This document shows, piece by piece, positions 1-5,445 of a DNA stretch of 64,000 nucleotides; position 1 is the stretch's first letter; every line of letters begins with the position of its first letter. Under the pieces are notes generated by a model. The model was not told the origin of the DNA, ran no database searches, and saw only the letters and a list, made by a program, of their open reading frames with translations. The DNA comes from Muribaculaceae bacterium (GTDB lineage: Bacteria > Bacillota > Clostridia > Lachnospirales > Lachnospiraceae). Location: contig JAMPCA010000009.1 in NCBI GenBank assembly GCA_023666425.1, positions 1-64,000 on the forward strand, given 5' to 3'. Made by a program: the position numbers and the translations under genes.

Positions 1-66
1 CAGGTATCAAAAAGTATAGAATTTATTGAAAAAAACACTTGACTATATGGAGAGGTGGTATGGAAG

Positions 67-342
67 ATGTCCAGATGGGAAACGCAGGTGCTTGAATCTG
101 TGTCTGGGATAGGCGAGGCATATAGAGAGCCTCTATTGGAGATTATCAGGGCATATGTCCGGTCTGTAAAGATAGGAAATCCTGATGTCGGCAAAATGGA
201 TTCGCAGAAACCATTATCTGACAAGAAAAAAGCGCTTATGAAAATGGAAGAACTGAGGGCAGAGTTTACTTTCCCTGCGGATTTTGATCCTGACAAAGAA
301 CTGGAAGAAGCGAGGGCAGCAAAATATGGTAGTATTGATTGA
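67..342 (+). CDS. Small antitoxin-like protein paired with a PIN toxin
   Basis: A 91-residue, charged, probably soluble protein with no family I can name with confidence. It lies directly upstream of, and overlaps by 17 bases, a PIN-domain gene, which is the usual layout of VapBC-like modules, so the antitoxin role is inferred from position. The C-terminal part (PADFDPDKELEEAR) is acidic and is the kind of tail that wraps a toxin. I chose the ATG at 67 because the GAGAGG motif near 50-55 is well spaced from it; a GTG at 55 is in frame but overlaps that motif. The gene could start further left only if the true start lies outside the window. Confidence 0.6.
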   Translation: MSRWETQVLESVSGIGEAYREPLLEIIRAYVRSVKIGNPDVGKMDSQKPLSDKKKALMKMEELRAEFTFPADFDPDKELEEARAAKYGSID

Positions 343-751
343 TACAAATGTAATTATTGATTACTACTGCGAAAGAGAAGAATTTTATAAAGCTTCTAAG
401 GCTGTAATGACATGGTGTGGTGAGGACGGTGTGGATGGGTATGTGGCATTCCATTCACTCCCGAACATCTGGTTTATATTGAGGAAATCGCCTGAAAAAA
501 TTCGCAGGGAGATATTATTGAATATTTGCAATCTACTTACCGTTGCAGGTGCAGATCAGGAAGAAGTGGTTAAGGCAATAGAAAATTCTGACTTTAAGGA
601 TTTTGAGGACTGTCTGCAGGACAGATGTGCTGTCAGCATATCGGCAGACTATATTGTGACCAGAAATGAGAAGGATTTTGCCACGGCAGAAACAAAAGCA
701 ATCACGCCGGAAGAGTTTTGCGAATTGATGAAAACGAGCAAAGAGACATGA
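326..751 (+). CDS. PIN-domain ribonuclease toxin (VapC-like)
   Basis: A 141-residue PIN domain protein. The N-terminus MVVLIDTNVIID carries the first catalytic aspartate (D6) in the classic DTN motif. Acidic residues around 92-95 (KDFED) and the late TRNEKDF motif near 112-118 supply the rest of the metal site. Members are Mg-dependent single-strand RNases, usually cutting tRNA or rRNA. The ATG at 326 fits the family N-terminus and has a GAGGG motif at 312-316; the longer in-frame start at 284 would add residues that no PIN protein needs. It overlaps the upstream antitoxin-like gene by 17 bases, so the two are probably translationally coupled, and it ends before a strong bidirectional terminator. 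Confidence 0.85.
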   Translation: MVVLIDTNVIIDYYCEREEFYKASKAVMTWCGEDGVDGYVAFHSLPNIWFILRKSPEKIRREILLNICNLLTVAGADQEEVVKAIENSDFKDFEDCLQDRCAVSISADYIVTRNEKDFATAETKAITPEEFCELMKTSKET

Positions 752-815
752 AAACTTTTATTACGAAAGCACACCGGGGAAAACCAAACCGCGGTTAGCC
801 CGAATTATGTACTAT

Positions 816-855
816 AAAATAGCCGCACAGTTTTCCAGACCAAGGCGGCTATTTT
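816..855. terminator. Bidirectional intrinsic terminator
   Basis: An 11-bp perfect stem, AAAATAGCCGC (816-826) with GCGGCTATTTT (845-855), separated by an 18-nt loop. T-rich tails occur on both strands. It sits between the rightward PIN module and the leftward 32-aa peptide gene, whose stop codon (849-851) lies inside the stem, so it can end both transcripts. Confidence 0.85.
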
Positions 856-947
856 TGTGTGTTATTACTATCTTTACCGAATGTATATCCGATTCCAAAG
901 CAGGTCAAGCCAAAACTTAACACAGCAATAAGTCCCCAAATATCCAT
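849..947 (-). CDS. 32-aa hydrophobic peptide, type I toxin-like (holin-like)
   Basis: Reading the minus strand from the ATG at 947 gives a 32-residue peptide: MDIWGLIAVLSFGLTCFGIG and then a short polar tail (YTFGKDSNNTQK). It has one hydrophobic segment (about residues 3-22), and an AGGAGGG motif lies just upstream (about 956-962). Its size, single membrane span, charged tail and stop codon embedded in a terminator stem resemble type I toxins of the TxpA/Fst/holin-like class. The family assignment is inference, because peptides this short give no firm homology. It is preceded by a long structured leader and faces the PIN toxin-antitoxin pair. Confidence 0.6.
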   Translation of the reverse strand: MDIWGLIAVLSFGLTCFGIGYTFGKDSNNTQK

Positions 948-1170
948 ATGGCACAGCCCTCCTCTCAAGAAATCAAAGACTTCTTTAGATTCCCTTGTGG
1001 GTTTCTATGTAATCGGAGGGGCGCACTGCGTCCGGTGGACGCAGGTTCTGCGCCGACCGAAACGGAGTGTAGAACACAGTCCCTCCGTAGAGGGCTAACC
1101 GCCTACCATCTTGGTAGCACCCGTAACGACAGTTTATCACTGTCAGCCACTTATTTCAACAACTTTTAAC
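948..1170 (-). promoter_or_regulatory. Structured leader or possible regulatory RNA upstream of the small peptide
   Basis: This non-coding stretch contains several strong hairpins. CTGCGTCC (1026-1033) pairs with GGACGCAG (1037-1044) over a 3-nt loop and is enclosed by GCGCA/TGCGC (1021-1053). CTACCA (1103-1108) pairs with TGGTAG (1112-1117), and GACAGT (1128-1133) with ACTGTC (1139-1144). A weak promoter-like pair (TTGTTG, then GATAAA) lies on the minus strand at roughly 1136-1165. A folded 5' region that hides the ribosome binding site is typical of type I toxin mRNAs, so this may be the toxin leader, an antisense RNA locus, or both. Confidence 0.5.
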
Positions 1171-1185
1171 AATGAAAAATCGTAT

Positions 1186-1227
1186 AAAAAAATTTACCCC
1201 ACAGACGCGGCTGCCGCATCTGTGGGG
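1186..1227 (-). terminator. Intrinsic terminator of the GH53 gene
   Basis: CCCCACAGA (1197-1205) pairs perfectly with TCTGTGGGG (1219-1227), with an inner GCGG/CCGC extension (1207-1217). On the minus strand it is followed by a T-rich run (1186-1195). It lies 13 bases beyond the stop codon of the galactanase gene. Confidence 0.9.
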
Positions 1228-1240
1228 TTGTTATTTTTGT

Positions 1241-4200
1241 TTATTTCACTTTGACTTTCATCTTGATGGTCTTGGTTGTACCGTTTTTCAGCGTTACCTT
1301 CGCCTTGACCGTCACGGTGCCGCTCTTCTTTGCGACAATCTTTCCGTTTTTATTTACGGTCGCAACCGACTTGTCGCTGGTCGTGTAGGTAATGGACTTG
1401 ATGTTGTCCTTGTTCGCCTTGTCGCTCAGCTTGAAGGTGGTGTTCTTCCCCTTCTTGACGCTTGTGCTGCTCTTCTTCGGCGTAATCGTTGCCTTGATTT
1501 CCTTGTCAATCTTTGCAGCCGTTTCCTTGTCCACCAGCGTGTAGGTCGCCTTCTTGCTCATGGATACGGACACATCGCCCTTGCTGTTTACCTCGTAGGT
1601 CTTGGCGTTGACCATGACATACTCGTTTGTCTTGGTATCCAGCTTGTAAATGTACAGCTCGTTGCCAGCCTTTAGATCCTTGGACTCCATCTGTACTTTA
1701 TACTTGGTATTTCCCGCCTTATCCTTTACAGTCATGGTAATGATAACGTTCGGAGTGCCTGCCGCCTCGGTAATCTGTCCCACGATGGAGGAAGGAATGC
1801 TCGTCTTGTTTCCCTTTTCCAGCGTCTTGCTGATGGATGCCTTGGCGGAGGTAATCTCTCCCTCGCCGTCCTTCTTTACCGTCACGGTGGTGCTGGTGGT
1901 GGCGGAGGACTGTGCAATCACAGACTTCTCTGTCACTGATGTTACCTTTCCCTCAGCGTCTGTCTTTGTGGTCGTGGTCACATCCACTTCCTTGCCCCGG
2001 CTGTTGACTTCGCTCTCGCTCACCTTTTCCACTGCGGAGCCGTCCACTGCCGTAACCTTTTCGGTTGTCTTAATCACCTCGCCGTTTGCCGCCGTCTCGG
2101 TCTTTGTCTCGGTCTTGCTTCCGTCTGTCGCGGTAGCCGTCACTGTCTCGGTCTTGCTTCCGTCTGTATTGGTGGTTGTCGTAGTCACGACCGTGGTGCC
2201 GTCCGGCTTTACCTCTGTGGTCGTCACCGGAGTGGTTGACGTGGTACTGCTGGAGCTTGTCGTGGTGGATCCTGTGGTGCCGGAGTTTACCGCATCGCCT
2301 ATACGATACAAGAATACATCGTCAACACTTCCCCATGCCCCTGCAACAGACTTTACTGTGATGGTAACTGTCACACGGTCGCCCGCCGCTGCGGAAATTC
2401 CTTCCGTTACCGGCTTCTGCCATACTGCCCAGCCCCTAAGCTGTGCATTTTTCTTAACAGAAGCGCCCGACGTCAGATTTGTGATAGAAATATTGATATC
2501 GTCTGCATCGCTTCCGTCTCCGCCCTGCAGCTGCATAGTCGCGCAATACATGCCGGCATTCGCCACGGTCACTGTCTGGGACATCGTAAAGTTCATATCA
2601 CTGCCGGAATAGAAATGCATGGCTCCGCTACCCCTTACCGGAGTGTCATTCCATTTGATTTCTACACCGTCTGCATTTGCAACCGTCCAGCCCGTACTTC
2701 CGCTCTCAAAATCTCCGTTTGTCAAAATAGAATTCGGTAAAACCAAAATCTCGCATTCGGCCTCTCCCTCATAGTTTTGTTCCTTATAGGAGCCAGACGC
2801 GGTTCCGGTAATTCTGTAAGTTCCAAAATCCGTGACCTTTGTATCCACCTCTTCGACATTCCATGTCGCTGCAAAAGGCACACGCTCGCCGTCGTTGAAG
2901 ATTGCGATTACATTCTCCGGCAGACCTGCCTTGATCTCTGCAAGTTTCGTCGTCACATCCGAGGTGTCCAGCAATATCTCCACCGAGCCGTCCTTTACGA
3001 CTTCCAGCTTAACGACCGGCCCCGTCCTTCCGGTACGAAGATCCTTAAACACGGTCAGAGAGTCTAATGGATTTCCCTCAAAGTCGAAAAACGCCTCATT
3101 ATCCTTCACGCTTCCGCCATAATAAGCGCCTCCATGCTCAGGATCATATTCATTTGAATAGCTGGACGCCCAGCCACTTCCAAATTCCTCCCATTTTTCC
3201 TGATTGCTCTCATAAATTGTCTCGATACGCTTCCCACCTTCATCATAGGCATACTCTACCGGAATCCATGTCGGCTCCCAGTAGAACACGCCGATAGAGG
3301 AGTTCGGCACTGTCTTATTGACATTGTTCACAGCCTCCACGACATCGCGAATCAGTGTTGCCTGACCCTGCACAGAAATATTGTAATCTGCATTTGTTCC
3401 CGGGTCGAAGCTCTGGGAATGCCCATCTCCATCTGCCGTTGTCCATGCCCATGAAGTCTCCGCAACCATCACCTTCTTATTATAAGTCTGCGCGATCTTC
3501 ACCAGCACAGAGGTCAGATTTTCCATCGAACCATGAATATTCGGGTAATATGAGGTGGCAAACACGTCATAGTCTACCCCGTATGTATCCAGCTGTGCAG
3601 TCACATTATCAAAATGACCGATGGTCTGCGGGTCGGTAAAGTGTACGGCCACAAGGATATTTTCATCTACGTCCCGAACTGCCCTGCTTCCGGCGCTGAA
3701 CAGCTTGCACATATCTTCCCAGCCGCTCACGCCCGCAATGCCGTTGTTGGTCTCATTTCCAACCTGCACCATACCGACATCTACACCATAATCCTCCAAT
3801 GCCTCCAGACTCTCCTTCGTAAAATTATAAAGAGCCTCCTCCTTCTGCGCAACCGTATAATCCTTCCATGCCTTAGGTGCATACTGTCTTTCCGGGTCTG
3901 CCCAGAAATCCGAATAATGGAAGTCAATCAGTACCCCCATTCCGGCGTCCGTTGCCAGCTTTCCAATCGTCTTTGCCTTTGCCAAATCGCTGTTTCCGCC
4001 GCCATAGCCTTTGCTATCTGCTGTATAAGGATCGTTCCATATCTTAATGCGCACATAATTGATACCGGAATCCTTAAGCAGGGTAAAAAACTCTGCATCA
4101 CTCAGTACATTCCCCTCGGAATCCTTAAATATCGCCCCGCTATCCTTCACACTTACATAGGAAGAGATATCAGCTCCGCAGATAAAATTCTCACTCAGAT

Positions 4201-5383
4201 TCTCCACTTGTTTGACAAAGATTCCACCTTCCTTGAGCCCCTTTACGGCTGCTTCCAGTGCTTCCAGCGCACTCGTAATCTCCGCCAGCTCCGCATCTGC
4301 CTTGCCCAATACGGTATTCGCATCTGTAAGAGCCGTCTGCAGCGCTGTCCACGAATCCGCCGTGTACACGCTCTCCTCATAATCTGCACAAGCCGTTACT
4401 ATCGTCTGCAGCTGTTCTTTCTCGTATGCAAGCTTCTCTGCAAGGCTGACTTTTTTTGAAAGAATAATATCATCAAAATCCAGCCAGCCTCCTGCATTAT
4501 ATGCGCAGGTAATCGTCGCGGTAATCGTGCCAGCCGCTGCAAGCGTCAGCGCATCAGTCGTGGTTTTTACACTGTTCCCCCATGCATTGATTGTGAGATC
4601 CTTATTGGCAGAATTCGTTCCGTCTGTCAGTGCAATGGAGCAGCTTCCCATAGTTCCGCCCACTGCCACAAGAGACATCGTGTAATCCCCTGCCGGCAAA
4701 TTATCAAAGTTCTTTGTAAATGTGGCCGTGTTTTCTGATTCCGACCATGTTTTCCAGCAATTCTCTCCAACCTCGTCCTTTGGACTCACCGTTGCATCTG
4801 CCCACACCGAATGCCAGCCGGTTGCAGATGCGGTGCTGTAATCCTCTTTGTAGTAGACAATGCTGTAGCCGTCTTCTCCCTCGTCGTCCTGGTTTCCCTC
4901 GTCAGTTACGACCTTTAGACTCATTCCAGAGAGGGTCACAGAGGTGTTCGCAGGCATCCAGATTGACCATCCGATATCTCCCGAATTATATGCTGTCCAG
5001 GACAGCTCTGCCCCCGCTGCGGTTGCCTCCACCGAATTAGACGACCATTTTTCATTATCATATGCATTTATCCATACACCTGAGTCAGAGCTCGTCGCCG
5101 TAACCGTACAGGTCGGCGTCACGCCATCCTCCAGCTCAATGTCTTGGGAAACAATAACATCACTACCCTCTCCATCATTCGTTAAAGTTAATGCATCATT
5201 GGCATAACTCTTTGTGACGGTCTGAACGTTTACTGTCCAGTCGTCTGCGCTCGTGTTCGTAAACAGTTCCGTCTCCTCCGCCTTCACAGCCATAAGTCCG
5301 CCGCTCCACGGCCCGAGCCCTGCTATCACCATAGCCAGAGCGAGCACAAGGCTGGTAACACGTTTTACCCATCTTTGCTTCAT
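1241..5383 (-). CDS. Secreted multidomain GH53 endo-beta-1,4-galactanase
   Basis: A 1380-residue secreted enzyme that should cut the beta-1,4-galactan side chains of pectin (arabinogalactan type I). Residues 1-35 are a signal peptide. Two jelly-roll, carbohydrate-binding-like regions (about 40-310) and a FIVAR-like helical segment (about 315-385) precede the GH53 barrel (about 398-790). The acid/base glutamate is in VQVGNETNNG (E544) and the nucleophile in VMVAETSW (E642). A BIG_4-like domain, another CBM-like module (about 885-1030), a long Thr/Lys-rich linker and a terminal BIG_2 domain follow. There is no LPXTG motif. ATG 5383 has GGGAGG at 5391-5396; the GTG 15 bases upstream has no such site. 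It is a single-gene unit with its own promoter and terminator. Confidence 0.93.
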   Translation of the reverse strand: MKQRWVKRVTSLVLALAMVIAGLGPWSGGLMAVKAEETELFTNTSADDWTVNVQTVTKSYANDALTLTNDGEGSDVIVSQDIELEDGVTPTCTVTATSSDSGVWINAYDNEKWSSNSVEATAAGAELSWTAYNSGDIGWSIWMPANTSVTLSGMSLKVVTDEGNQDDEGEDGYSIVYYKEDYSTASATGWHSVWADATVSPKDEVGENCWKTWSESENTATFTKNFDNLPAGDYTMSLVAVGGTMGSCSIALTDGTNSANKDLTINAWGNSVKTTTDALTLAAAGTITATITCAYNAGGWLDFDDIILSKKVSLAEKLAYEKEQLQTIVTACADYEESVYTADSWTALQTALTDANTVLGKADAELAEITSALEALEAAVKGLKEGGIFVKQVENLSENFICGADISSYVSVKDSGAIFKDSEGNVLSDAEFFTLLKDSGINYVRIKIWNDPYTADSKGYGGGNSDLAKAKTIGKLATDAGMGVLIDFHYSDFWADPERQYAPKAWKDYTVAQKEEALYNFTKESLEALEDYGVDVGMVQVGNETNNGIAGVSGWEDMCKLFSAGSRAVRDVDENILVAVHFTDPQTIGHFDNVTAQLDTYGVDYDVFATSYYPNIHGSMENLTSVLVKIAQTYNKKVMVAETSWAWTTADGDGHSQSFDPGTNADYNISVQGQATLIRDVVEAVNNVNKTVPNSSIGVFYWEPTWIPVEYAYDEGGKRIETIYESNQEKWEEFGSGWASSYSNEYDPEHGGAYYGGSVKDNEAFFDFEGNPLDSLTVFKDLRTGRTGPVVKLEVVKDGSVEILLDTSDVTTKLAEIKAGLPENVIAIFNDGERVPFAATWNVEEVDTKVTDFGTYRITGTASGSYKEQNYEGEAECEILVLPNSILTNGDFESGSTGWTVANADGVEIKWNDTPVRGSGAMHFYSGSDMNFTMSQTVTVANAGMYCATMQLQGGDGSDADDINISITNLTSGASVKKNAQLRGWAVWQKPVTEGISAAAGDRVTVTITVKSVAGAWGSVDDVFLYRIGDAVNSGTTGSTTTSSSSTTSTTPVTTTEVKPDGTTVVTTTTTNTDGSKTETVTATATDGSKTETKTETAANGEVIKTTEKVTAVDGSAVEKVSESEVNSRGKEVDVTTTTKTDAEGKVTSVTEKSVIAQSSATTSTTVTVKKDGEGEITSAKASISKTLEKGNKTSIPSSIVGQITEAAGTPNVIITMTVKDKAGNTKYKVQMESKDLKAGNELYIYKLDTKTNEYVMVNAKTYEVNSKGDVSVSMSKKATYTLVDKETAAKIDKEIKATITPKKSSTSVKKGKNTTFKLSDKANKDNIKSITYTTSDKSVATVNKNGKIVAKKSGTVTVKAKVTLKNGTTKTIKMKVKVK

Positions 5384-5445
5384 TCTAATACCTCCCACTT
5401 AAAATCCGGCCGCATTTCCCGCACCTCTCCGTCTTGGGAACTGAG

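Follow-up and report, generated by a model that had tools for sequence, protein, structure and literature searches.

A short open reading frame near the start of the window (the whole stretch of 64,000 nucleotides that was analysed) poses the question of whether it encodes the toxin of a type I toxin-antitoxin module and, if so, which RNA restrains it. The preliminary description had proposed it as a type I toxin candidate; comparison among relatives strengthens this proposal with a conserved hydrophobic peptide led by a Shine-Dalgarno (SD) sequence, a leader predicted to sequester that sequence and, in nearly all relatives, a convergent antisense RNA gene. The peptide is, with high probability, a type I toxin paired with a convergent antitoxin RNA, and in its family a short RNA from the opposite strand very probably keeps the toxin switched off. 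The features of the locus are collected in Table 1.

Table 1. Features of the toxin module and its neighbours, in window positions.
Positions	Strand	Feature	Basis or remark
55..342	+	95-aa ORF lying upstream in the PIN pair, presumably the protein antitoxin	Overlaps the PIN ORF
326..751	+	PIN-domain toxin of a type II toxin-antitoxin pair	PF13470 (PIN_3), E 1.1e-16; a congener has a homologue with 88% identity
735..790	+	Junction homologous to neither neighbour; the antitoxin lacks its promoter and the first half of its motif	Homology ends at 734, restarts at 792
791..856	+	Antitoxin RNA body: truncated 5′ motif GCGGTTAGCCC (791-801), A/U-rich spacer, terminator	Homology to other modules from 792
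816..855		Bidirectional intrinsic terminator; stem AAAATAGCCGC (816-826) / GCGGCTATTTT (845-855)	Sequence; covarying stems in relatives
849..947	-	Toxin ORF, 32 aa, MDIWGLIAVLSFGLTCFGIGYTFGKDSNNTQK	Translation; unannotated
957..963	-	SD sequence AGGAGGG of the toxin ORF	Sequence; predicted almost fully paired
948..1124	-	Structured leader of the toxin mRNA	5′ end set by the predicted promoter; folding; family alignment A1
992..1001	-	Hairpin H3, CCC-ACAA-GGG	Covariation in A1
1014..1087	-	Hairpin H2, arms CGGAGGG (1087-1081) / CCCTCCG (1020-1014), separated by an inserted palindrome	Compensatory arm changes in the family
1021..1074	-	REP-like palindromic insertion in the H2 loop, 54 nt	Homologous copies in other modules
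1092..1122	-	Conserved 5′ element GGGTGCTACCAAGATGGTAGGCGGTTAGCCC: hairpin H1 and anti-SD segment	In 145/156 modules
1131..1159	-	Toxin promoter TTGAAA-17-TAAACT	Predicted; position conserved in the family
1196..1228	-	Strong terminator belonging to the gene that precedes the toxin	Keeps read-through away from the toxin promoter

The peptide has one predicted membrane-spanning segment and a polar or charged C-terminus. Both the strong ribosome binding site of this short hydrophobic ORF and the position of its stop codon (851-849) inside the terminator stem had been recognized at the outset and are confirmed. Homologues of the leader-plus-peptide region were found in 52 of 194 relatives, with up to 29 of the 32 residues identical. 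Conservation of the reading frame had been named as a check on the candidate, and the frame is indeed conserved across dozens of genomes: the differences from 49 relatives of equal length fall on codon positions 1, 2 and 3 in the numbers 199, 138 and 577, a strong third-position excess, and the mean dN of 0.127 against a mean dS of 1.007 indicates strong purifying selection; for the closest peptide, that of locus L004, the values are 0.04 and 0.24. A small hydrophobic peptide under coding selection, as expected of a type I toxin, is present. The source genome holds a single copy of the module; another module (L013, of genome G050) is contained within a Roseburia porci record (L183), of the same genus as the source bacterium. 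Searches of Pfam and PHROGs with the window peptide gave zero matches, and those in NCBIfam were at chance level only. Three points weigh against the toxin reading, namely that the window peptide matches no known toxin family, that the antitoxin motif and the toxin initiation region pair no better than expected by chance, and that the antitoxin promoter is missing from the window copy.

The predicted promoter puts the start of the toxin mRNA near position 1124, which gives a leader of about 177 nt; the earlier estimate of about 220 nt was too long, while the structure ascribed to the leader is borne out by folding, the RNA being more stable than 100 of 100 shuffled sequences (z -3.6). Across the family, the toxin-leader motif GCTACC-loop-GGTAGGCGGTTAGYCC was found in 145 of 156 modules, and in 106 of those 145 the toxin promoter scored at least 9 (controls, 11 and 12). 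Hairpin H1 lies at the predicted 5′ end of the mRNA, with the start site taken from the promoter, and 97% of its cells are paired. H3 shows 31 cells in alignment A1 with both sides changed, where shuffling gives 10 on average (0 of 500 shuffles). H2 was overlooked by RNAalifold on the whole leader alignment because it is misaligned there; it was examined in each sequence with the arms selected for complementarity, so that the argument for it rests on the recurrence of different arm pairs, which vary yet stay complementary (CGGAGGG/CCCTCCG, CAGAGGG/CCCTCTG, CACAGG/CCTGTG and others). Most relatives are without the 54-nt palindrome that separates the H2 arms in the window, and the retention of these arms around the insertion gives independent support for H2. 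By calculation, the leader buries the SD sequence: in 39 diverse toxin mRNAs its mean unpaired probability is 0.055, versus 0.309 with shuffled leaders, and is lower in 37 of the 39, while in the window it is 0.001-0.06 per base. The predicted pairing partner is the segment after GCGGTT (35%) or the 3′ arm of H2 (43%). The full-length toxin mRNA is thus predicted to fold into a translationally inactive form, as is characteristic of type I systems.

The inserted palindrome belongs to a REP-like element, TTCTACACTCCGTTTCGGTCGGCGC...GCGCCCC, that is dispersed in Lachnospiraceae (the window copy, L017, L021, L024, L029, L030 and L031). It occurs in the H2 loop of several other modules, in either orientation, and also alone elsewhere; in the source genome the window copy is the sole full one. 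As a dispersed palindrome present in both orientations, it was rejected as a conserved part of the leader RNA.

No antitoxin figured in the preliminary description; however, nearly all relatives carry on the opposite strand a convergent short RNA gene, comprising a sigma-70-type promoter, the motif GCTACCGATAGACGGTTAGCCC, an A/U-rich spacer and a terminator that ends at the toxin stop and is the same bidirectional terminator as that of the toxin mRNA. The motif was detected as a pattern (at most 2 mismatches) in 85 of 397 family genomes, where the reversed pattern, used as a control, gave 0 matches, and (at most 1 mismatch) in 2 of 398 genomes sampled across the phylum; named genomes contain it in at least 119 stretches, the majority from Lachnospiraceae and a few from others, e.g., Anaerovibrio. 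Coprococcus comes, Eubacterium ramulus and Roseburia porci are among the species with intact modules, from which an antitoxin RNA of 75-85 nt would be expected. Once redundancy was removed, 220 occurrences remained, and 156 of them lie opposite a hydrophobic, SD-led ORF (22-50 aa) whose end is 25-75 nt from the motif, versus 0 on the other flank and 1 in shuffled DNA, counts that rest on related sequences and analyst-set thresholds. The antitoxin promoter scored at least 9 in 112 of 155 cases (controls, 10-12). A second class of antitoxin, with 47 loci, has an extra 5′ hairpin ahead of the motif and an extended -10 promoter further upstream; this hairpin, of the GGACATCTG...CAGATGTCC type, was seen in L004, L014, L015, L039, L050 and about 40 other loci. 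The members have 104 distinct terminator stems in which complementarity is kept, and the A/U tracts on both sides of the stem make termination possible on both strands.

The 5′ elements of the toxin mRNA and of the antitoxin RNA are related to each other, and cognate pairs are more alike than swapped ones (13.14 versus 12.55 identical letters of 15; 0 of 2000 shuffles), a likeness that may reflect function or merely common descent. Pairing of the antitoxin motif with the toxin initiation region was calculated at -12.88 kcal/mol, versus -12.92 for shuffled targets, and was better in 37 of 83 cases with no cognate preference; the pairing with the toxin SD that can be drawn in some loci (TTAGCCC/GGGCTAA) was rejected as a family-wide feature, being no better than with shuffled targets. 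With the leader the motif pairs at -19.1, versus -16.0 for shuffled leaders (better in 71 of 83, again with no cognate preference), because both elements share complementary arms. An antisense RNA gene is present at the level of the family, whereas the window copy has its body and the overlap and lacks a promoter of its own. The facing-ORF counts, the related 5′ elements, the folding away of the SD and the covarying H2, H3 and terminator hairpins argue for a type I toxin-antitoxin family centred on Lachnospiraceae.

At the level of sequence, the comparison establishes two convergent gene structures, conserved promoters, a shared covarying terminator and a conserved peptide, and the following course of events may be proposed for an intact module. 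The toxin mRNA would start at the GGTGCTACC element, with the conserved hairpin element first, and would fold with either the segment GCGGTTAGCCCTC or the 3′ arm of H2 covering its SD. The antitoxin RNA, from its own promoter, would begin with the same kind of element and end in the same bidirectional terminator; since this is common to both, the 3′ ends of the two RNAs, for about 40 nt, are fully complementary. We infer that contact starts at this overlap and leads to a duplex, which may be removed by RNase III and/or keep the mRNA silent through a translation block. Once the antitoxin is gone the peptide would be made, and would presumably enter the membrane and stop growth.

As proposed here, the antitoxins of the Bacillus subtilis pairs txpA/RatA and bsrG/SR4 bind the toxin mRNA at its 3′ end and act via RNase III, but their overlap is of about 100 nt or more, versus about 40 nt here, and their peptides differ. 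A parallel is found in the Fst/par family, with a toxin of about 32-33 aa, convergent promoters, a shared bidirectional terminator providing 3′ complementarity and a leader that buries the SD; in par of pAD1, antisense contact is described as starting at the shared terminator region (PMC7472228). This organization could mean that the modules belong to Fst/par with a diverged peptide, since convergent promoters (in the family; the window copy lacks that of the antitoxin), bidirectional terminator and SD sequestration are as in par (PMC7472228). Such membership is nevertheless very unlikely: the window peptide is not homologous to Fst, lacks the PXXXG motif and contains no proline at all; no Fst model was among the matches of 59 family peptides; no Rfam Fst antitoxin family matched any of six relatives at E<=1. 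In Fst/par an upstream helix also sequesters the 5′ end of the mRNA, a part that H1 may or may not play here. Direct-repeat complementarity of the DRa/DRb type at the initiation site was not found, and a par-type direct-repeat step is unsupported, because the antitoxin motif pairs with the toxin initiation site no better than chance. Moreover, in the new family both RNAs begin with related 5′ elements, and the family is absent from Rfam. It is therefore organized like Fst/par yet without two of the defining features of par. The type I modules of Clostridioides difficile (CD2517.1-RCd8 and others) are also similar in their convergent toxin and antisense RNA genes, their small hydrophobic toxins and their occurrence in Clostridia, often on mobile elements (PMC6563280, PMC7699646); their characterized toxins have 34-53 aa with lysine-rich tails, and a review names no relatives in Lachnospiraceae genera (PMC6563280, PMC7699646).

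The peptides borne on this RNA scaffold are highly diverse: their sequence is replaced entirely while the two-RNA scaffold persists, and the scaffold therefore unites peptides that sequence alone would not. Two siblings match Hol_Tox (PF16935, putative holin-like toxin) above the Pfam cut-off, with 26.5 and 27.5 versus 23.3 bits, whereas the window peptide and its close relatives are unmatched; another resembles PepG1 (NCBIfam NF041589), a named type I toxin, at E 4.6e-5, although far below the curated cut-off (22.9 versus 70 bits), and here too the window peptide is unmatched. Neighbouring genes are diverse and include some restriction-specificity, integrase and helix-turn-helix genes. A non-toxic small membrane peptide under regulation, for instance a stress or envelope regulator with the cis-antisense RNA as an ordinary regulator, would agree with a peptide that is conserved and that no toxin model matched; it is nonetheless improbable, since complete peptide turnover on a constant two-RNA scaffold is the pattern of a toxin module, the modules are dispersed and sometimes multi-copy beside unrelated genes including restriction and integrase genes, and some of the siblings are Hol_Tox or, in one case, PepG1-like. 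L061, L089 and L167 each hold a tandem pair of complete modules, in a span of about 1 kb at most, whose toxins are similar or different.

The toxin reading being preferred, the state of the window copy has to be considered. The ORF had been described as facing the PIN pair and sharing its terminator; the pair is real and the stretch from the PIN stop (751) to the shared terminator yielded no other one, but the first facing neighbour of the toxin is its own damaged antitoxin gene. The region 816-855 is thus the terminator common to toxin mRNA, antitoxin RNA and PIN operon, as well as the antisense overlap. The PIN operon, whose upstream 95-aa ORF has zero Pfam matches, is homologous from 50 to 734 (90%) to the congener locus L281, where the sequence that follows is unrelated and provides, about 100 nt on, a hairpin-plus-T stretch of that operon's own. 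As homology to L281 ends at 734 and homology to the type I modules begins at 792, the antitoxin promoter and the first half of the motif are missing; the best promoter score in the region is 7 of 12. Judging from these breakpoints, the PIN pair was brought against the type I module by a rearrangement. A second PIN gene, 51% identical to that of the window, is found elsewhere in the source genome (G000:C6:24486-24896). On the other side of the toxin, 1241-5398 (minus strand) encodes a 1385-aa secreted protein, whose centre looks glycoside-hydrolase-like by eye (galactanase-like motifs, e.g., RIKIWNDPY) and which has a long C-terminal repeat region.

With no terminator found after the PIN stop ahead of the shared one, the antitoxin body is expected to form the 3′ end of the PIN mRNA, and with the promoter lost any antitoxin in the window must come from PIN read-through. 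Either, then, the 3′ UTR of the PIN mRNA supplies the antitoxin, or the copy is decaying. That the antitoxin RNA has been turned into the 3′ UTR of the type II mRNA and holds the type I toxin down is a tentative and somewhat doubtful proposal; if true, the type I toxin would be set free whenever the type II operon was silenced or lost. That the copy is a decaying remnant, with its antitoxin promoter lost, its leader interrupted by the REP-like insertion and its toxin silenced by its own leader alone, is a substantial possibility, if short of probable: the promoter and part of the 5′ motif are absent, H2 carries the insertion and the SD is almost fully buried, but the toxin ORF, SD, promoter and terminator are all intact, the dN of the peptide against its closest relative L004 is low beside the dS, and the insertion is evidently tolerated, because it is present in H2 of relatives with an intact antitoxin motif. 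Family-wide, the gene upstream of the antitoxin (median distance 98 nt) is co-directional in 99 cases and opposite in 37, while the gene beyond the toxin side is co-directional in 49 and divergent in 67, a difference with a Fisher p of 1e-6 that is optimistic because the members are related. Antitoxin genes are thus found preferentially after a co-directional gene, and coupling between antitoxin and host gene may be a general trait. A terminator barrier general to the toxin side and not to the antitoxin side was rejected (4/44 versus 4/93, p = 0.27), the terminator test being insensitive.

Outside Lachnospiraceae the motif was observed in L151 and L218, from records named Anaerovibrio lipolyticus, where the module is confirmed, and Megasphaera (motif only); its presence there suggests horizontal transfer. 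Plasmid and phage record collections gave zero DNA matches, and 16 of 2.9 million viral contigs contain the motif. In Rfam, the whole window had 0 matches at the gathering cut-off, and six relatives searched at E<=1 gave only scattered, far sub-threshold matches to unrelated families. In the literature searched, which includes few subscription papers, no paper contained the motif sequence and none joined type I toxin-antitoxin systems, Fst and Lachnospiraceae. The family is new to the databases and papers searched, and may have been described earlier.

A toxin-antitoxin family undescribed in Rfam would thus be present in about a fifth or more of the sampled genomes of Lachnospiraceae, a dominant gut family. 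Protein annotation is likely to overlook such peptides; the conserved RNA motif detects the toxins whatever their sequence and can therefore serve as a means of cataloguing unrelated peptide toxins. The shared 5′ element and the exchange of peptides on one scaffold raise testable questions about how an antitoxin recognizes its target, and the PIN junction offers a natural case in which one toxin-antitoxin system may depend on another.
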